A stretch of DNA of 64,000 bases from Janthinobacterium sp. GTDB lineage: Bacteria > Pseudomonadota > Gammaproteobacteria > Burkholderiales > Burkholderiaceae_D. Positions within the stretch are counted from its first letter, which is position 1. Every line of letters begins with the position of its first letter. The translations under genes were made by a program, and so were the position numbers. Of the stretch, positions 9,936-18,276 are shown one piece after another. Under the pieces are notes generated by a model that was given only the letters and a program-made list of their open reading frames with translations, made no database searches and had not been told where the DNA came from. The stretch is from contig NZ_RFSK01000010.1 in NCBI RefSeq assembly GCF_009923995.1, positions 62,001-126,000 of the forward strand, given 5' to 3'.

Positions 9936-11099
9936 TTGTTTGCCCTGAAAACCCTGCGCCGCGAGACCGGCGCAACCGCTCTTCCCGCCCTGCGCCTGAT
10001 GGCCGCCGCCGCCCTGGCCGTGTCCCTGGCCGCCTGTTCCAAGCCGGTGCCGAAGGTGGAGGACGTGCGCCCCGTGCGCGCGATTGTGTTGTCCAGCAGT
10101 AATGTCGACGTGAGTGCCGAGCTGGCGGGCGAGGTCGTGCCCCGCGTGGCGTCGCAGCTGGGATTCCGCGTGGGCGGCAAGATCGTCGCGCGCAAGGTGG
10201 ATGTGGGCGCCGTCGTGAAAAAGGGGCAGGTATTGATGCAGCTCGACCCCGTCGACCTGCAGCTGTCGCAGGCGCAGGCCAAGGCGGCGCTGGCCAGCGC
10301 GGAAACGAACCGCGACCTGGCACGTGCCGAGCTGAAGCGTTATCAGGACTTGCGCGAGAAAAATTTCGTCAGCCAGGCCGTGCTTGATGGCAAGGACGCG
10401 GCCTACAAGGCGGCACAATCGAATGTGGAAGCGGCCCAGGCCGCCTACAGGGGCCAGGCCAACCAGTCCGGCTATGCCAGCCTGGTGGCCGACGCCGATG
10501 GCGTCGTCACGCGCATCGATGCCGAAGTGGGGCAGGTGGTGGCGCCCGGCACGCCCGTCGTGGTGGTGGCGAAGTCCGGCGAGAAGGAAGTCGTGATCGG
10601 CATTCCGGAAGACAAGGTCGAGACCTTGCGCGGCGTCAAGGATGTCACCGTGCGCCTGTGGGCCGACCCGAAGCAGGCGCTGCCGGGCAAGATCCGCGAA
10701 GTGTCGCCCGTGGCCGATGCGGCCACGCGCACCTACCTGGCCAAGGTCAGCATCCCCGACGCGCCCCAGGCGCGCCTGGGCATGACGGCCGTGGTGCAGT
10801 TCGCCTCGCAGACGGCCACGCCGCAGATCAAGGTGCCGCTGACGGCCCTGTTCAACGAGAAATCGCAAAGTTCCGTGTGGGTGGTGGAAAACGGCGCCGT
10901 CAAGCTCGTGCCCGTGACCGTCGGCGGCGTGGCCGGCAATGAATTGCTGCTGACTTCGGGCGTGAAGGCGGGCCAGACCGTCGTCACGGCCGGCGTCAAC
11001 CTGCTCAAGCCGGGCCAGAAAGTCACCATCCTGGGCGCGGAAACGGCCGCGCCGGTGGCTGCCGCCGCGTCGCCCGTCAGCGTGGGTGCCGCCAAATGA
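9936..11099 (+). CDS. RND efflux periplasmic adaptor (membrane fusion) lipoprotein
   Basis: This is the periplasmic adaptor of an RND efflux pump; it links the inner-membrane pump to an outer-membrane channel. The start is a TTG at 9936 with AAAGGA seven bases upstream; from it the protein is 387 residues with a lipoprotein signal ending LAAC at Cys34 (Ser at +2, predicting the outer membrane). A barrel-sandwich half-motif, a helical hairpin (about 105-165) and a beta-barrel domain follow in the usual order. Its stop overlaps the pump start (ATGA). The substrate cannot be told from sequence. Confidence 0.9.
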   Translation: MFALKTLRRETGATALPALRLMAAAALAVSLAACSKPVPKVEDVRPVRAIVLSSSNVDVSAELAGEVVPRVASQLGFRVGGKIVARKVDVGAVVKKGQVLMQLDPVDLQLSQAQAKAALASAETNRDLARAELKRYQDLREKNFVSQAVLDGKDAAYKAAQSNVEAAQAAYRGQANQSGYASLVADADGVVTRIDAEVGQVVAPGTPVVVVAKSGEKEVVIGIPEDKVETLRGVKDVTVRLWADPKQALPGKIREVSPVADAATRTYLAKVSIPDAPQARLGMTAVVQFASQTATPQIKVPLTALFNEKSQSSVWVVENGAVKLVPVTVGGVAGNELLLTSGVKAGQTVVTAGVNLLKPGQKVTILGAETAAPVAAAASPVSVGAAK

Positions 11100-14000
11100 A
11101 GGGCGGTTTCAATCTGTCGCGCTGGGCGCTCGAACATATCCCGCTGACGCGCTACCTGATGGCCGTGCTGCTGATCGGCGGCATGCTCAGCTATGCCAGC
11201 CTGGGCCAGGATGAAGATCCCCCGTTCACCTTCCGCGCCATGGTGCTGCAAGCGTACTGGCCCGGCGCCACGGCCTTGCAGATGGCCGAGCAGGTGACGG
11301 ACAAGCTGGAAAAGAAGCTGCAGGAAACGCCGTACATCAATGAAATCACCAGCTACTCGAAGCCGGGCGAAACCTTGATCCTGCTGGAGCTGCGCGAGTC
11401 GGCGCCGCCGAAGGAAACGGCCGCCGCCTGGTACCAGGTGCGCAAGAAGATCGGCGACATCAAGGGCATCTTGCCGGCCGGCGTCGTGGGCCCGTTCTTC
11501 AATGACGAGTTCGGCGACACGTATGGCTCCATCTTCGCCCTGTCCGGCGACGGTTTTACCTACGCGGAAATGAAGGATTACGCGGACAAGGTGCGCCAGG
11601 AACTGCTGGCGGTGGGACAGGTGTCGAAGGTGGAACTGTTCGGCGTGCAGGATGAAAAGATCAATATCATCTTTTCCCACAAGAAATTTGCCCAGCTGGG
11701 CATCCCGTTCGACGCGATCGTGCAGCAGCTGTCCGAGCAGAACAGCATCAACGCCACGGGCGTGCTGGTCACGCCGACGGACAACCTGCAGGTGCGCGTG
11801 ACGGGCGCCATGGCCACCGTCAAGGACCTGGAAAACCTGGAACTGCGAGCCAACGGCACCACTTTCCGCCTCGGCGACTTTGCCACGGTGAAACGCGAAT
11901 TCACGGATCCGCCGAAGGACAAGATGCGCTTCAACGGCAAGGAAGTGATCGGCCTGGGCGTGTCGATGGAAAAGGGCGGCAACATCATCGACATGGGCAA
12001 GGCCCTGCAGACGACGGTGACGCGCATGAAGAGCGAGTTGCCGGTGGGCATAGAACTGCAGCGCGTGTCGAACCAGCCTGAAGCCGTGTCCGCTTCCGTG
12101 GGCGAGTTCGTGCATACCCTGATCGAAGCCATTCTCATCGTGCTGGCCGTCAGCTTCGTCGCGCTGGGCCTGCACACCAAGCCGCTGCGCATCGACGTGC
12201 GGCCGGGCCTGGTGGTGGCGCTGACCATTCCGCTGGTGCTGGCCGTCACTTTCCTGTGCATGCGCCTGCTCGACATCGACTTGCACAAGATTTCCCTGGG
12301 CGCCCTGATCATCGCGCTGGGCCTGCTCGTCGATGACGCCATCATCGCCGTCGAAATGATGGTGCGCAAGATGGAAGAGGGCATGTCGCGCTTCGACGCA
12401 GCCACCTTTGCCTACACGTCGACGGCCATGCCCATGCTGACGGGCACCCTGATCACGGTGGCGGGCTTCTTGCCCATCGGCCTGGCCAAGTCGGCCGCCG
12501 GCGAATACACGTTTTCCTTGTTCTCCGTCAATGCGCTGGCCCTGATCATTTCCTGGGTGGTGGCCGTCGTCTTCACGCCCTACATCGGTTACGTCTTGCT
12601 CAAGGTCAAGCCGCACGCGCATAACGACCATGAATTGTTCGATACGCCGAACTTCCGCCGCTTCCGCCGCACGGTGGCCTGGTGCGTGGAGTGGCGCAAG
12701 ACGACGATCGCCGCCACCCTGGCCATCTTTGCGCTGGGCATCTATGGCTTTAACTTTATTGAAAAGCAATTCTTCCCCGATTCCAGCCGGCCCGAGCTGA
12801 TGGTGGAACTGTGGTCGCCCGAAGGCACGACCTTTGCCGCGAATGAAAAGCAGGTGAAGAAATTCGAGGCTTTCGTCGGCAAGCTCGACGGCGTGGAAAG
12901 CGTCACCAGCTATGTCGGCACGGGCAGCCCCCGGTTCTACCTGCCGCTGGACCAGATCTTCCCGCAGACCAATGTGTCGCAAGTGGTGGTGTTGCCGAAG
13001 AGCCTGGCCGACCGCGAGCGCCTGCGCCAGCAAATCGTCGACGTCTTCAAGAAGGATTTCCCGGAAGTGCGGGGCCGGGTCAAGCTGCTGCCGAACGGGC
13101 CGCCCGTGCCGTATCCCGTGCAGTTCCGCGTCACGGGCCCGGAAGTGGCGGGCGTGCGCGTCATTGCCGACCAGGTCAAGGATATCCTGCGCGCCAATCC
13201 GAACACCCTGGGCGTGAACGACAACTGGAATGAATCCGTGAAAGTGCTGCGCCTGGACCTGGACCAGGACAAGATGCGCGCGCTGGGCGTGACCTCGAAA
13301 ACGGTGATGCAGGCGGCCAATACGATTCTGTCGGGCACGGTCATCGGCCAGTTCCGCGAAGACAATAAGCTGATCGATATCCAGGTGCGCCAGCCGCTGG
13401 AGGAGCGGGCGACGATTTCCGTGCTGAATGACACGAATATCCCGACGGCAACAGGCAAGTCCGTGCCCATCTCGCAGCTGGCCCGCGTGCATTTCGTGTG
13501 GGAACCGGGCGTCGTCTGGCGCGACCGCCGCGAATGGGCCATCACCGTGCAGTCGGACGTGGTCGACGGCATCCAGGGCGCGACCGTATCGACCCAGCTG
13601 GCGCCGCAGCTCGACGCCTTGCGCGCCAAGCTGCCGGCCGGCTACCGCATCACCGTGAAGGGCGTGGCGGCCGACAGCGGCGAGGCGGAAGCGTCGATCG
13701 CGGCGAATCTGCCGCTGGCCATCTTCATCATCTTCACCCTGCTGATGCTGCAGCTGCACAGTTTCTCGCGCGCCTTGCTCGTGTTCCTGACGGGCCCGCT
13801 GGGCGTGGCGGGCGCCGCCTTTGCCTTGCTGCTGCTGCACCGTCCGCTGGGCTTCGTGGCCAACCTGGGCGTCATCGCGCTGTTCGGCATGATCATCCGC
13901 AACTCGGTGATCCTCGTTGACCAGATCGAGCAAGACATCAAGGATGGTTCGGCCCCGTGGGACGCCATCATCGATTCGGCCGTGCGCCGCTGCCGCCCCA

Positions 14001-14206
14001 TCGTGCTGACGGCGGCTGCCGCCGCGCTGGCCATGATCCCCCTGTCGCGCTCCGTCTTCTGGGGACCGATGGCCGTGGCCATCATGGGCGGCCTGATCCT
14101 GGCGACGGCCTTGACCCTGCTGTTCCTGCCGGCCCTGTACGCGGCCTGGTTCCGCGTCAGGAAGCCGGAGCCGGCAGGCGGGAAGGTGGATACGCCGGCG
14201 GCGTAA
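11096..14206 (+). CDS. RND efflux permease (AcrB/HAE1-like)
   Basis: The 1036-residue product is the proton-driven inner-membrane pump. It has the twelve-helix RND layout with two large periplasmic loops; the proton-relay aspartates are D413-D414 in the GLLVDDAIIAVE motif of helix 4. The N-terminus (FNLSRWALEH..RYLMAVLL) resembles the MexI/MexK-like single-adaptor subgroup rather than AcrB itself. It overlaps the adaptor gene by four bases. No outer-membrane factor gene follows, so the pump probably borrows a TolC/OprM-type channel encoded elsewhere. Confidence 0.93.
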   Translation: MKGGFNLSRWALEHIPLTRYLMAVLLIGGMLSYASLGQDEDPPFTFRAMVLQAYWPGATALQMAEQVTDKLEKKLQETPYINEITSYSKPGETLILLELRESAPPKETAAAWYQVRKKIGDIKGILPAGVVGPFFNDEFGDTYGSIFALSGDGFTYAEMKDYADKVRQELLAVGQVSKVELFGVQDEKINIIFSHKKFAQLGIPFDAIVQQLSEQNSINATGVLVTPTDNLQVRVTGAMATVKDLENLELRANGTTFRLGDFATVKREFTDPPKDKMRFNGKEVIGLGVSMEKGGNIIDMGKALQTTVTRMKSELPVGIELQRVSNQPEAVSASVGEFVHTLIEAILIVLAVSFVALGLHTKPLRIDVRPGLVVALTIPLVLAVTFLCMRLLDIDLHKISLGALIIALGLLVDDAIIAVEMMVRKMEEGMSRFDAATFAYTSTAMPMLTGTLITVAGFLPIGLAKSAAGEYTFSLFSVNALALIISWVVAVVFTPYIGYVLLKVKPHAHNDHELFDTPNFRRFRRTVAWCVEWRKTTIAATLAIFALGIYGFNFIEKQFFPDSSRPELMVELWSPEGTTFAANEKQVKKFEAFVGKLDGVESVTSYVGTGSPRFYLPLDQIFPQTNVSQVVVLPKSLADRERLRQQIVDVFKKDFPEVRGRVKLLPNGPPVPYPVQFRVTGPEVAGVRVIADQVKDILRANPNTLGVNDNWNESVKVLRLDLDQDKMRALGVTSKTVMQAANTILSGTVIGQFREDNKLIDIQVRQPLEERATISVLNDTNIPTATGKSVPISQLARVHFVWEPGVVWRDRREWAITVQSDVVDGIQGATVSTQLAPQLDALRAKLPAGYRITVKGVAADSGEAEASIAANLPLAIFIIFTLLMLQLHSFSRALLVFLTGPLGVAGAAFALLLLHRPLGFVANLGVIALFGMIIRNSVILVDQIEQDIKDGSAPWDAIIDSAVRRCRPIVLTAAAAALAMIPLSRSVFWGPMAVAIMGGLILATALTLLFLPALYAAWFRVRKPEPAGGKVDTPAA

Positions 14207-14493: not shown

Positions 14494-14576
14494 GCGGATG
14501 TGGTGGAATTGGTAGACACGCTGGTCTTAGAAGCCAGTGCTTCGGCTTGGGAGTTCGAGTCTCCCCATCCGCACCA
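14494..14576 (+). tRNA. tRNA-Leu (UAG)
   Basis: A complete tRNA with a 7-bp acceptor stem (gcggatg / catccgc), D arm ggaattggtaga, anticodon loop cttagaa giving anticodon UAG (reads CUA), a long class-II variable arm (tgcttcggctt), T arm with gttcgag, and an encoded CCA end. Confidence 0.97.
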
Positions 14577-14633
14577 GTCCGGGTTGTTCCAGCCCGGAAG
14601 TGCAGCGCCATCAAGATTTTCTCCAGGGCAGTA

Positions 14634-16187
14634 TCAACCCAGTGCGCCGAGGGCGGCCAGTTGCCGGCTCGACTGCTGCACCATCTGCGTGATCAGGGCC
14701 TGCGCCTGCGGGTAGCCCGTTCTTTCCATCATGGATACATCCTGTGCCACCGGCAATAGTGCCTGTAGTACATATTGTCGCGTCTGTGGCCAGCCTTGCT
14801 CTTGCGCTGGCGTCGGCATCTCCCTGTCCAGCAGGCGCAGCGCCGCCTGCGCCATCGCCCGTTCCTGTTGCGCCTGCACGCCCAGCGTGTCGCTGCGGGG
14901 CGGCGGCTGCTGCGCGAGATACGTGTCGAGCTTGCGGCTCTGGCGCTCGTACAGGTCGAGCAGCAGGTGGACGGTGGCGCCGGCGGGGCGCCGCTGCGTG
15001 TCGAGCGTGTCGAGCACGTCCGTCAGCCAGTCCGTCATACGCCGGCCGGCCAGTCCCAGTTCGGGCCACGTGACGGCGCGTAACTGTTCGCCCAGGTAGC
15101 GGGCCCGGTCGATGGCGCGGCGGCTGCCGCTCATGTGAGTGCCGATGGGGCCGTACAGGGGTGCCAGGGCCGCCTCGTGCCGCTCCGCTAGCAGGCACAG
15201 CAGAGCCAGCTGGACGTAGACGTGGAAGGCGGCCAGCACGCGGTGGGCATCCCAGCAGTGGTTGCCGTCCTCGTCGGGCGCATTCCACAGCGAGCAGACT
15301 TTGGCCCCGTCCTCGCGCGCATAGTCGGGGGCCAGCAGGCTGTGGCCATGGCGGAAATCGTACAGTTTCTGGTGCAGCGCCTCGTGCAGCAGGTGCTCGG
15401 CCAGCCACCAGGGGTTGCCGATCAGCTCCTGGTTCAGGAACACGCTGCCATTGACGCGGAATTGCGAACTGGAAGCCTTGCCGCGCCACGTGCCCAGCGT
15501 GGGAAACAGGGCGACGAGCTGCACGTGCGACAGGGCGCTGGCGCTCAGGCGAGGCAGCAGAGCGTCGAGCAGGCGCAGGCCCCGGCGCAGCAGGGCGCGC
15601 TCGTGCGGCGTGGGCGTGGCCAGCGGCGCGCCGTAATTATCTTCCATCACGGCAAGAAACGCCGCGGCATAGGGCGTGTCTTGCTGCCAGGCATGCCATA
15701 TATAAGTGTCATCCTCGTCCCTGGCGCGCCCGTCGTGCAGGCGCGCCAGGGCGGGCAGGCGGGCCGTCAGCGGTCCTCCCGGCAGGCCGGCGCGCAGGTG
15801 TCCGGCGGCGCCCTGGAACAGGGCCGCGCAGCGGGGCAGGGGCAAGCCATAGTCGTCGCCCAGGTGCAGCTGGCGCATGGCGTGCTGCACGGCGCAGCGC
15901 AGCACCGTGTCGCCCAGCAGCTGGCGCTGGCGGGCCGGCGCCGCCGCGTCCAGCAGCCGGGCCAGGCGCTCCGCCTCGGGCAGGGCGCTGCCCAGCTTGT
16001 GCAGGCGCCGCCGGTAGGCGACGGCCAGCTGGTCGCGGATGTAGGTGCTGTCGCCAAAGGCGCGGTGGCGTACCAGCGCCGTTTCGACGGCGTCCAGCAC
16101 GTCAGGGCCGGGCGGCGCGGCGCGCGGGGTGGGCAGGGCCGCTGCCGCGTCAGGCGACGGTGGGATGGTCGTGGTCGTGGTGGCCAT
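14634..16187 (-). CDS. HExxH-motif putative peptide-modifying enzyme (aKG-HExxH-type)
   Basis: The 517-residue product carries HEALH with H268, E269 and H272, followed about 30 residues later by a SLWN...CWDAHRVLAAFHVYVQLALL segment. This layout matches the mod_HExxH / 'aKG-HExxH-type' group, whose members are tied to ribosomally made peptides; characterised relatives are 2-oxoglutarate-dependent hydroxylases rather than proteases. The N-terminus is low-complexity (Thr/Pro/Ala). The start at 16187 overlaps the preceding peptide gene by 38 bases; a GTG near 16103 is an alternative. No other modifying enzyme, protease or exporter gene adjoins. Family assignment is by pattern recognition and is moderately secure; substrate is inferred from the neighbour. 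Confidence 0.68.
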   Translation of the reverse strand: MATTTTTIPPSPDAAAALPTPRAAPPGPDVLDAVETALVRHRAFGDSTYIRDQLAVAYRRRLHKLGSALPEAERLARLLDAAAPARQRQLLGDTVLRCAVQHAMRQLHLGDDYGLPLPRCAALFQGAAGHLRAGLPGGPLTARLPALARLHDGRARDEDDTYIWHAWQQDTPYAAAFLAVMEDNYGAPLATPTPHERALLRRGLRLLDALLPRLSASALSHVQLVALFPTLGTWRGKASSSQFRVNGSVFLNQELIGNPWWLAEHLLHEALHQKLYDFRHGHSLLAPDYAREDGAKVCSLWNAPDEDGNHCWDAHRVLAAFHVYVQLALLCLLAERHEAALAPLYGPIGTHMSGSRRAIDRARYLGEQLRAVTWPELGLAGRRMTDWLTDVLDTLDTQRRPAGATVHLLLDLYERQSRKLDTYLAQQPPPRSDTLGVQAQQERAMAQAALRLLDREMPTPAQEQGWPQTRQYVLQALLPVAQDVSMMERTGYPQAQALITQMVQQSSRQLAALGALG

Positions 16188-16332
16188 CGCCCGTCATGCG
16201 CAATTCCATTTCATCGACTTCCGTCTGGATTTTTTGCAGGTCGTCATCGCTTACCCCATCGAGCAGGCGGCTGAGGACCATTTGCAGCTTGGCTTTGGCA
16301 TTGCTGGAACTGCCGGGTGCGCTGTCGCTCAT
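16150..16332 (-). CDS. 60-aa peptide with His/Asp-rich tail, candidate precursor
   Basis: The product is 60 residues: a Ser/Gly-rich start, an acidic amphipathic middle (LQMVLSRLLDGVSDDDLQKI) like a leader helix, and a C-terminal GDGHHDHDHPTVA tail. The ATG at 16332 has AGGGAG eight bases upstream. Its 3' end overlaps the start of the HExxH gene, so both are co-transcribed and probably translationally coupled. Size, leader-like middle and distinctive tail fit a RiPP precursor whose His/Asp residues are modified by the enzyme; a small metal-binding accessory protein is the alternative. Confidence 0.6.
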   Translation of the reverse strand: MSDSAPGSSSNAKAKLQMVLSRLLDGVSDDDLQKIQTEVDEMELRMTGDGHHDHDHPTVA

Positions 16333-16935
16333 GATGTTTTCTCCCTTAAATTCACTTGGAGAGGGGGCGGGGGCCTTAGGTTTGCCTGAAAAATGGCCAA
16401 ATTGAGGCAAATCAAAGGTTTTTTGCCTTAAATTGTCATCGGGAGCGCATTTCTTTGTTTCGGACGGGGCGACAGTTCGCATATACTACGAGACGAAACA
16501 GGCTGGAAAGCCTGTCTCTGGCGAAATGAAGAATGCCGGGGCAAGAGTAAAGACAGGGCAGACCCGGGCTGCGGCGATTCGTTCGCTGCCGCTGGCATCA
16601 CCTGTGGCCGGGCCGCAAAGCCAGCCACTTCTCCGAAGTCCTTTGTTATAATGCCACGCTTTACCGAATGATGGCCGGCCCTGCGATTTACCTTGAAGCA
16701 TGGCTGGACGCTCGGAGCCCTGTCGCAGTACTGGACGCGGCGGATTGTTTGGTGCCTGGTGCGGGTTTTCCCCCTCAGCCGGGTAGACCAGGTCCATCGT
16801 CCTGCTTTCAGTACTTTTACAGATGAATATGCGAGCGAGTGAAGCTGGACCCATGTCTTGCCGCCAGTGATGGCGCAAGGGGTCGGGTCTTCTTCTCTCG
16901 TACCAACAGTGTTTATTTTTTGGACGATTTTTTAC
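16333..16935. other. Divergent control region between the peptide gene and tig
   Basis: About 600 bases without a convincing gene. On the minus-strand side a palindrome tttgcct...aggcaaa (16383-16410) with a third ttttttgcctt copy just beyond lies 50-110 bases before the peptide gene and may be an operator. On the plus-strand side a TATAAT (16647-16652) precedes a leader of about 275 bases before tig that contains GC-rich stem-forming stretches. I see no known riboswitch or housekeeping RNA in it. Confidence 0.45.
16647..16652 (+). promoter_or_regulatory. Candidate -10 box of the tig promoter
   Basis: A consensus TATAAT; the matching -35 region (around 16624-16634) is poor. Transcription from here would give tig an unusually long leader of about 275 nt. 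Confidence 0.4.
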
Positions 16936-18276
16936 ATGGCAACTGCAGTCGAAACCTTGGGCAAACTCGAACGTCGTATCACGATCTCCTTCCCGCTGAC
17001 GGACGTCCGCACGGAAGTTGAGAAGCGCCTGAAAGTGCAAGCCCGTACGGCTAAGGCACCGGGCTTCCGTCCGGGCAAAGTGCCGTTGAAAATGGTCGCA
17101 GCACAATACGGCTACCAGATCGAATCCGAAGTGCTGAACGACAAAGTCGGCCGCGCTTTCAACGACGCCGCCAACGAAAACAACCTGCGCGTCGCAGGTT
17201 TCCCGAACATCGTGCCGAAAGAAGAAGCAGCCGAAGGCCAGCTGGCTTTCGATGCCACTTTTGAAGTGTACCCGGAAGTCGTCATCGGCGACCTGACGGC
17301 CGTTGAAATCGAAACCGTGCAAGCCGACGTGTCGGAAGCCGAAATCGACAAGACCATCGACATCCTGCGCAAGCAGCGCGTGCACTTCCACACCAAGGGC
17401 GAAGCTGGCGAACACGGCGACGGCGGTGAAGCTATCGCTGCCAACGGCGACCGCGTGACCGTGGACTTCGTCGGCTCGATCGACGGCGTGGAATTCCCGG
17501 GCGGCAAAGCCGACGGCTACGCTTTCGTGCTGGGCGAAGGCCGCATGCTGCCGGAATTCGAAGCAGCGACCCTGGGCCTGAAAGTGGGCGAGTCCAAGAC
17601 TTTCCCGCTGTCGTTCCCTGAGGACTACCATGGCAAGGACGTGGCCGGCAAAACCGCTTCGTTCACCATCACCCTGCAAAAGCTGGAATGGGCGCACCTG
17701 CCGGAAGTCGATGCCGAATTCGCCAAATCCCTGGGCGTTGCCGATGGCGACCTGGCCAAGATGCGCGAAGACATCAAAGTCAACCTGCAGCGCGAAGTCG
17801 CTGGCCGCGTGAAAGCACGCAACAAGGAAGCCGTCATGGACGCGCTGATCAAAGTTGCTGAGCTGGAAGTGCCAAAGACCCTGATCGCTCAGGATTCCGA
17901 GCGCCTGGCCGAAATGACCCGCCAGGACATGGCGCAGCGCGGCATGAACGTCAAGGACGTGCCTTTCCCAGCAGAACTGTTCGCGGAAAAGGCCGAGCGT
18001 CGCGTACGCCTGGGCCTGATCCTGTCGCAGCTGGTGGGCGACAACAACCTGCAGGCTACGCCTGAGCAAGTCAAGGCGCAGATCGAAGATTTCGCCCAAA
18101 GCTACGAAGATCCACGCGAAGTGCTGAAGTACTACTACAGCGACCGTCGTCGTCTGGGTGAGATCGAAGCCCTTGTATTGGAAGAAAACGTCGTCACTTA
18201 CGTGTTGGGCCTGTCGAAAGTCACGACGAAAGCAGTTGCTTTCGACGAACTGATGGGAAGCAACGCACAAGCGTAA
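16936..18276 (+). CDS. tig: Trigger factor, ribosome-associated chaperone
   Basis: Trigger factor binds the ribosome exit tunnel and shields nascent chains. The 446-residue product has the ribosome-binding N-domain (signature region GFRPGKVP near residue 45; the family usually has GFRxGKxP), a central FKBP-type prolyl isomerase domain (about 165-250) and the long helical C-domain. The start [10 protein letters not shown] at 16936 is the family start; in-frame upstream codons give no conserved sequence. It heads the tig-clpP-clpX-lon order shared widely among proteobacteria. Confidence 0.97.

Follow-up and report, generated by a model that had tools for sequence, protein, structure and literature searches.

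The proteins of the aKG-HExxH family were recently recognised as oxygenases, and their action on their peptides is not yet predictable (PMC13060819). ChlH (Morishita et al. 2024, as cited in PMC12636437 and PMC13060819) acts on Asp and His residues in a ribosomal peptide, and other members hydroxylate Gln, Pro or Phe: PflC and PosC combine the beta-hydroxylation of Gln with oxidative cleavage at ARMD, and PesO acts on Pro (PMC12636437, PMC13060819). Here we describe a pair of genes from Janthinobacterium sp., found in a stretch of 64,000 nucleotides (contig NZ_RFSK01000010.1 of assembly GCF_009923995.1, positions 62,001 to 126,000; hereafter, the window), in which a gene for a 60-residue peptide with a His/Asp-rich tail lies upstream of a gene for an aKG-HExxH-type enzyme. 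An earlier reading of the letters of the window (hereafter, the original prediction) had taken this pair for a minimal system akin to those that make ribosomally synthesized and post-translationally modified peptides (RiPPs), and it rightly stated that relatives of the enzyme hydroxylate peptide side chains.

PflC and PosC (Pseudomonas pfl and pos clusters; Os1350 of the OS3 cluster) are likewise stand-alone aKG-HExxH enzymes encoded beside their precursor; several residues of the tail are modified, and the cluster has no protease gene (PMC12636437, PMC7726476). However, their precursor combines an NHLP-type leader with a Gln-rich ARMD tail, and their clusters add a GNAT, an MNIO-nitroreductase and transporters. 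PesO (nitrilobacillins) and BipH/BpmH (biphenomycins) are also aKG-HExxH hydroxylases of RiPP pathways (PMC13060819, PMC12707348, PMC12257519), but they belong to multi-gene clusters with MNIO, asparagine-synthetase-like or B12-radical-SAM enzymes, peptidases and transporters. No description of a peptide–enzyme pair such as that of the window was found in the literature searched, most subscription papers lying outside the search. The enzyme family is already known; what is new is a minimal aKG-HExxH system whose peptide has a His/Asp tail and in which a methyltransferase is optional.

We propose that the two genes probably form a RiPP-like system, in which a leader-docked aKG-HExxH oxygenase would beta-hydroxylate the His and Asp (possibly the Pro) of the peptide tail. 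The 60-residue peptide would be the precursor, with LLDGVSDDDLQKIQ, in its helix-like middle part, as the docking leader and GHHDHDHPT as the core. The oxygenase, presumably dependent on iron and 2-oxoglutarate, would dock on the leader and modify the His and/or Asp, perhaps several of them successively: such an iterative reaction is suggested by the facts that members of the family beta-hydroxylate precursors and that the tail offers His, Asp and Pro. In relatives, an S-adenosylmethionine (SAM) methyltransferase, either fused to the oxygenase or encoded divergently, would then act on the same tail, and Janthinobacterium would have the minimal form, which lacks it. The product would probably bind metal, and it would serve inside the cell or be set free by housekeeping proteases.

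The two genes are on the minus strand and overlap (peptide gene, 16332-16150), as originally predicted for the peptide and for the 517-residue open reading frame (ORF) with its HEALH motif (H268, E269, H272). The tail of the peptide is conserved. The sequence GHHDHDHPT is intact in 15 of the 17 peptides of Janthinobacterium, and in these 15 all nine codons vary silently with no residue change (nonsynonymous divergence, dN, 0 and synonymous divergence, dS, 0.71, a mean over the 67 of 105 pairs whose dS is above 0). Selection thus acts on the amino acids of the tail. For leader plus tail, dN is 0.044 and dS is 0.53, over the same 15 peptides; the decayed copies L018 and L021 (L-numbers are labels of enzyme loci, and G-numbers are genomes) were left out. 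The last two residues of the peptide differ between copies (VA, AA, VE, LE or RA). A sequence GGAG occurs at the position of the ribosome-binding site in 16 of the 17 copies, the seventeenth, L018, having GGAA. Of 2,882 short ORFs read from the window and from the retrieved DNA, 22 satisfy a criterion for His/Asp tails that was set after the tails had been seen; 19 of the 22 are peptides of this kind.

The peptide and the enzyme go together. The enzyme is present in 18 of 40 Janthinobacterium genomes. Of its 18 loci, 17 have the peptide beside the enzyme, and at the remaining one, L023, the enzyme is a fragment, on a small contig. When the peptide and the enzyme were searched for separately in 294 genomes sampled from the family, a survey that the original prediction had suggested, both searches returned the same 13 genomes, all from one genus of 44; the enzyme was not found in the other 43 genera of this sample.

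Within Janthinobacterium, the space between tRNA-Leu and tig holds either both genes or neither. The tig locus could be read in 30 of the 40 genomes: 16 have the pair there, and in the other 14 tRNA-Leu is close to tig, with no detectable remnant of the pair. The homology between the window and these 14 empty-site genomes ends at 14604-14627 on one side and at 16364-16449 on the other side. The claim that the system is conserved next to tig in this lineage therefore stands for its position, in all 16 carriers read, but not for its presence, considering the number of genomes of the genus that have the enzyme.

In two Janthinobacterium genomes, both the peptide tail and the enzyme have decayed. 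In L018 (G039) the tail is lost, and the enzyme has 22 changes at 201 sites that are invariant in the other 15 copies; the number of changes at those sites is 0 to 4 in the other copies, except in the most distant one, L022, which has 47. In L021 (G018) the tail is shortened to GHHDHPT, and a large internal deletion joins the N-terminal stretch of the enzyme directly to about residue 191.

By predicted fold and by motif, the enzyme is a member of the aKG-HExxH family. Its sole NCBIfam match, in a comparison that had been proposed as a check, is TIGR04267 (aKG-HExxH-type peptide beta-hydroxylase), with an E-value of 8.9e-9 and a score of 35.6 bits, below the curated cut-off of 40. This cut-off is reached by some relatives only: five of the nine that were scanned exceed it, with 40.3-55.9 bits (L048, L049, L051, L052 and L054; Actinomadura 55.9, Streptomyces 52.4, Aphanothece 45.9, sphingomonad 40.7 and Nocardioides 40.3), and four score 34.2-37.1 (L022, L047, L050 and L055). 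There is no match to the enzyme in Pfam. Neither phmmer nor a narrow profile (A1) found a convincing solved relative, but a broader profile (A5) finds ChlH, with an E-value of 3.1e-6.

A model of the 488-residue form of the enzyme, built from an alignment of 36 sequences, has a mean predicted local distance difference test score (pLDDT) of 93.2 and a predicted template modelling score (pTM) of 0.92. An earlier model, based on 16 close sequences, reached a mediocre pLDDT of 73, placed the loop behind HExxH poorly, and was discarded. The retained model matches ChlH, the aKG-HExxH domain of ChlB (PDB 8s5f, chain E), with a Z-score of 26.1 and a root-mean-square deviation of 3.5 over 303 of 331 residues (Foldseek E-value 1.5e-6), and SjiH (22ob) with a Z-score of 23.1; among the matches listed, the next chain has a Z-score of 8.0. 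ChlH and the modelled enzyme, which are about 16% identical, have the same fold and the same HExxH iron site, HEALH being aligned by HMMER with HEHRH of ChlH. The structural match stops at residue 367 of the model, and the C-terminal helical part (to residue 488) is unmatched.

The residues H268, E269 and H272 of HEALH are invariant in all 36 aligned sequences. The layout W...R...H announced downstream of the motif is there too (W312, R316 and H322): R316 and H322 are also invariant, and W312 is kept in at least 90% of the sequences. In the numbering of the 488-residue form, to which 29 must be added to obtain that of the 517-residue ORF, the positions invariant in all 36 sequences are H239, E240, H243, D248, W272, R287, H293, Y295 and R332. 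The ORF is indeed 517 codons long, but its start is not conserved. The first 29 residues (window 16100-16187) are of low complexity, rich in Thr, Pro and Ala, and variable, and several relatives have no ATG at that place; a GTG (ATG in one case) at residue 30, which would give 488 residues, is kept in 13 of the 16 intact Janthinobacterium copies. We also note that in L015, L017, L019 and L020 the frame of the enzyme directly follows the stop codon of the peptide, in the same frame, and that two of these four have no early ATG.

The system is not confined to this lineage: the original prediction missed related pairs in Paraburkholderia, in a sphingomonad, in relatives of Actinomadura and in Streptomyces. 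The scan of genome contigs gave 19 loci, nine of them outside Janthinobacterium, and further searches added a plasmid of Streptomyces xanthophaeus (L057). In Streptomyces, 18 of 246 genomes matched, four of them with a close full-length enzyme, and in the Actinomadura family 12 of 200 matched, two of them closely. The system is nevertheless rare and patchy, since a class-wide profile search found one genome in 369, that of the window, and the searches in Paraburkholderia (1 of 117) and in Sphingomonadaceae (1 of 298) each returned only the genome already known.

The original prediction had named the absence of the peptide gene beside orthologues as an argument against itself. This is not what we observe, either in Janthinobacterium or elsewhere: at eight of the 12 nearest enzyme loci outside the genus (L047-L053, L057, L065-L067 and L084), a peptide with a His/Asp-rich tail is encoded upstream on the same strand, and one more has a weak tail. 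The eight tails are GHDHD...GHHDH in Paraburkholderia kirstenboschensis (L047), FHHHD...EHHDH in a metagenome-assembled genome of a sphingomonad (L048), GHHHHDDE in Actinomadura (L049), SHDHDHMDDHDH in L084, DDHDHDHN in L051, GHHHHHDDDE in L057, GHHHDHDD in L065 and GHHHHDDDD in L067.

In a tree of 36 enzymes, the 18 labelled as peptide-bearing and L050 form one clade of 19 (support 100/100), and within the stretches read there is no His/Asp-tailed peptide at the 17 rows outside the clade. L066 and L018 are counted as peptide-bearing in this tree despite their weak and lost tails, respectively. The tree omits the plasmid enzyme L057, the fragments L023, L053/L064 and L021, the close copies L009 and L011-L015, and the partial matches L074-L081, L083 and L092-L094.

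The distant peptides resemble that of the window in their middle part as well. Each of the 12 peptides in the alignment (three from Janthinobacterium and nine from elsewhere) has the motif [ST]xx[DEQ][LIV]xx[LIM]Q, whose Gln is invariant, and we suppose that this segment acts as a leader.

A methyltransferase accompanies the pair at eight of the nine distant peptide-bearing loci, the weak-tailed L066 being counted. A SAM methyltransferase domain (Methyltransf_24) is fused behind the oxygenase in L047 (5914-8097), L048 (5845-8031) and L084 (934-3336, minus strand), and a homologous gene is divergent from the peptide gene in L051, L057 (6749-7438, minus strand), L065, L066 and L067. No methyltransferase was seen in the 13.4-kb locus L049, in L050 and L052, or in three Janthinobacterium loci of about 13 kb. 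The statement that no second modifying enzyme adjoins the pair thus holds in Janthinobacterium but not for the distant loci. A candidate partner in Janthinobacterium, with a weak O-methyltransferase-like match (at most 46.5 bits), was rejected: it is found in 35 of the 40 genomes irrespective of the pair.

All five partner methyltransferases of Streptomyces start with a domain that resembles the peptide leader (in L067, for example, CVSLTFDREMSTAEVE compared to RVILEFDREVTDKEVE in the peptide). The leader profile gives these N-termini 12.4-22.1 bits, versus 9.2 bits for the best of 10,000 shuffled sequences, and the profile–profile comparison of the leader with the methyltransferase N-terminus gives a probability of 94 and an E-value of 1.5e-7. 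Such a domain was not seen in the fused methyltransferases (L047, L048 and L084). The simplest reading of these sequences is that the leader-like domain may be a docking or dimerising module common to the precursor and to a modifying enzyme; the methylation itself would then take place on the tail.

Regarding the product, beta-hydroxy-Asp is described as an iron-binding group of non-ribosomal siderophores. Beta-hydroxy-His is likewise an iron-binding group in non-ribosomal siderophores. Bufferins, which are modified by an MNIO and bind copper, are a precedent for a modified ribosomal peptide that handles a metal, although they differ from the present peptide in being, by description, Cys-based, Sec-exported and MNIO-modified (PMC12452194). 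The composition of the tail, the occurrence of hydroxy-Asp in siderophores and the precedent of bufferins suggest, by analogy, that the product binds a metal. A broader idea, which we consider possible but on the whole doubtful, is that the peptides of Pseudomonadota and Actinomycetota form one family, whose tails would become runs of beta-hydroxy-His/Asp, often then methylated, and would serve as an intracellular, genetically encoded, siderophore-like metal ligand; the methyltransferase would find the peptide by means of its own copy of the leader, and the system would have no exporter or protease of its own. If the product is as we propose, a ribosomal peptide with several beta-hydroxy groups would provide a metal ligand by a new route. 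The setting is very small (one peptide, one enzyme, an invariant nine-residue tail, and natural versions with and without the methyltransferase) and can be readily expressed and tested.

Several observations do not fit easily with the proposal that the tail is hydroxylated after docking of the leader. As to the peptide, that of L066 has a weak tail only (QHDFEVEEN); none was detectable at L050, inside the clade, or at L052, just outside it, and L053 is a fragment. The distant tails differ in length and pattern, which suits loose metal binding as well as a defined target of an enzyme. No model of Pfam or NCBIfam exceeds its cut-off for eight of the peptides, and none is matched by a known RiPP leader model. 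In the outgroup loci L086 (1289-1483, reverse strand) and L087 (1283-1477, plus strand), a 65-residue ORF located where the enzyme starts has the leader-like sequence 'LSEDDLRAL' and no His/Asp tail (E-values of 1.5 and 2.5 with the hidden Markov model of the peptide); the leader motif alone may therefore not be specific, and these ORFs could possibly be related precursors with another core. As to the enzyme, that of the window and its closest scanned relative, L022, are below the cut-off of TIGR04267, and R316 and H322 (R287 and H293 in the shorter form) are not matched with any His or Arg of ChlH in the HMMER alignment, which thus assigns neither the third iron ligand nor the 2-oxoglutarate residue.

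The absence of an adjoining exporter or protease, noted in the original prediction, has the same bearing: no such gene is shared among 19 neighbours scanned in four loci, and none is annotated on the plasmid, so that leader removal and release are unsupported. It may be that these genes are encoded elsewhere. An RND permease does adjoin the pair in the window, beyond tRNA-Leu, but it was rejected as the exporter because its end persists beside the empty sites (14 of 14, and 17 of 18 carrier loci). EamA-type transporters are encoded in L051, at a distance of about 2 kb from the pair, and in L048, at 5 kb or more.

In another explanation, the peptide is a small metal-binding accessory subunit, whose His/Asp tail supplies the oxygenase with iron, buffers this iron, or regulates the enzyme, the true substrate being elsewhere. 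Tails rich in His and Asp typically bind metals, those found here follow no fixed pattern from one phylum to another, and no conserved exporter or protease was seen. We nonetheless find this explanation unlikely: the order HHDHDHPT, including Pro and Thr, is fixed in 15 of 17 peptides, which exceeds what a generic metal ligand needs, the recurrence of the leader domain on the partner methyltransferase fits the docking of modifying enzymes, and the characterised relatives modify adjacent precursor peptides.

It is also conceivable that the enzyme cuts the tail as PflC and PosC do, either by an oxidative cleavage that leaves a C-terminal amide or by hydrolysis, instead of hydroxylating it or besides doing so. 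These two enzymes, which belong to the same family, do both, and without the leader PflC hydrolyses (PMC12636437); moreover, most Janthinobacterium tails end in small residues (PTVA, PTAA), and no separate protease gene is seen beside the pair. However, a trigger resembling ARMD is absent, the final two residues differ between copies whereas the His/Asp/Pro/Thr stretch before them does not change, and the distant tails have no C-terminal Ala motif in common, which makes cleavage rather improbable compared to the beta-hydroxylation that we favour. Last, the idea of an ordinary, gluzincin-like zinc metallopeptidase that has the peptide beside it by chance is very hard to defend: the HExxH motif, a weak match of the model to the putative Zn-dependent peptidase 3c37 (Z-score 4.6) and the description of the ChlH fold as reminiscent of zincins (PMC12636437) stand against the far higher scores with ChlH and SjiH, the absence of a Pfam match and the recurrence of the peptide upstream of the enzyme across phyla. 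Regarding the canonical protease fold that had been named as a possible refutation, the model is far closer to ChlH than to any protease.

The positions of the pair, of its parts and of the neighbouring genes are collected in Table 1.

Table 1. Elements of the two-gene locus and its surroundings, in positions of the window.
Feature	Position	Strand	Remarks
Two-gene cassette	about 14627..16377	both genes minus	present/absent as a unit between tRNA-Leu and tig
Precursor-like peptide, 60 residues	16153..16332	-	MSDSAPG...GHHDHDHPTVA, C-terminus GDGHHDHDHPTVA; TGA stop 16150-16152
His/Asp tail GHHDHDHPT, proposed core and modification site	16159..16185	-	codon analysis, 15 copies
Leader-like segment NAKAKLQMVLSRLLDGVSDDDLQKIQTEVDEMELRM	16195..16302	-	motif [ST]xx[DEQ][LIV]xx[LIM]Q common to distant peptides
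Ribosome-binding site GGGAG of the peptide gene	16341..16345	-	8 nt ahead of the peptide ATG
aKG-HExxH-type oxygenase, 517-residue ORF	14637..16187	-	TGA stop 14634-14636; TIGR04267, ChlH-like model
Candidate alternative start GTG	16098-16100	-	residue 30; would give 488 residues
HEALH metal-binding motif	15372..15386	-	residues 268-272; H239/E240/H243 in 488-residue numbering
WDAHRVLAAFH	15222..15254	-	contains W312, R316, H322
tRNA-Leu (tag)	14494..14576	+	one flank of the cassette
tig (trigger factor)	16936..18273	+	TIGR00115, 1.5e-123; other flank, outside the system; clpP beyond tig
RND permease	11096-14206	+	beyond tRNA-Leu, converges on the pair

The conserved DNA and the inverted repeats upstream of the peptide were considered as a sign that the pair is regulated, and were rejected as evidence, because most empty-site genomes remain homologous up to a point about 46 nt ahead of the start of the peptide.

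The profile of the peptide also gives weak matches in L086, L087, L054, L076 and L079 (E-values 1.5-4.6). It did not find the ORFs that fit a loose tail pattern in L070, L072, L085 and L092, which were judged unrelated. Other actinobacterial groups of aKG-HExxH enzymes, of the AEYLLHEAMH and LLHEGLH types, come without a recognisable His/Asp peptide (L085-L088, L068-L071, L082 and L089-L091). A match in Nonomuraea also surfaced in the searches for relatives of the enzyme. In L054 (5033-5539) and L055, a small protein that by eye resembles PqqD or a RiPP recognition element (RRE) precedes a more distant aKG-HExxH enzyme.

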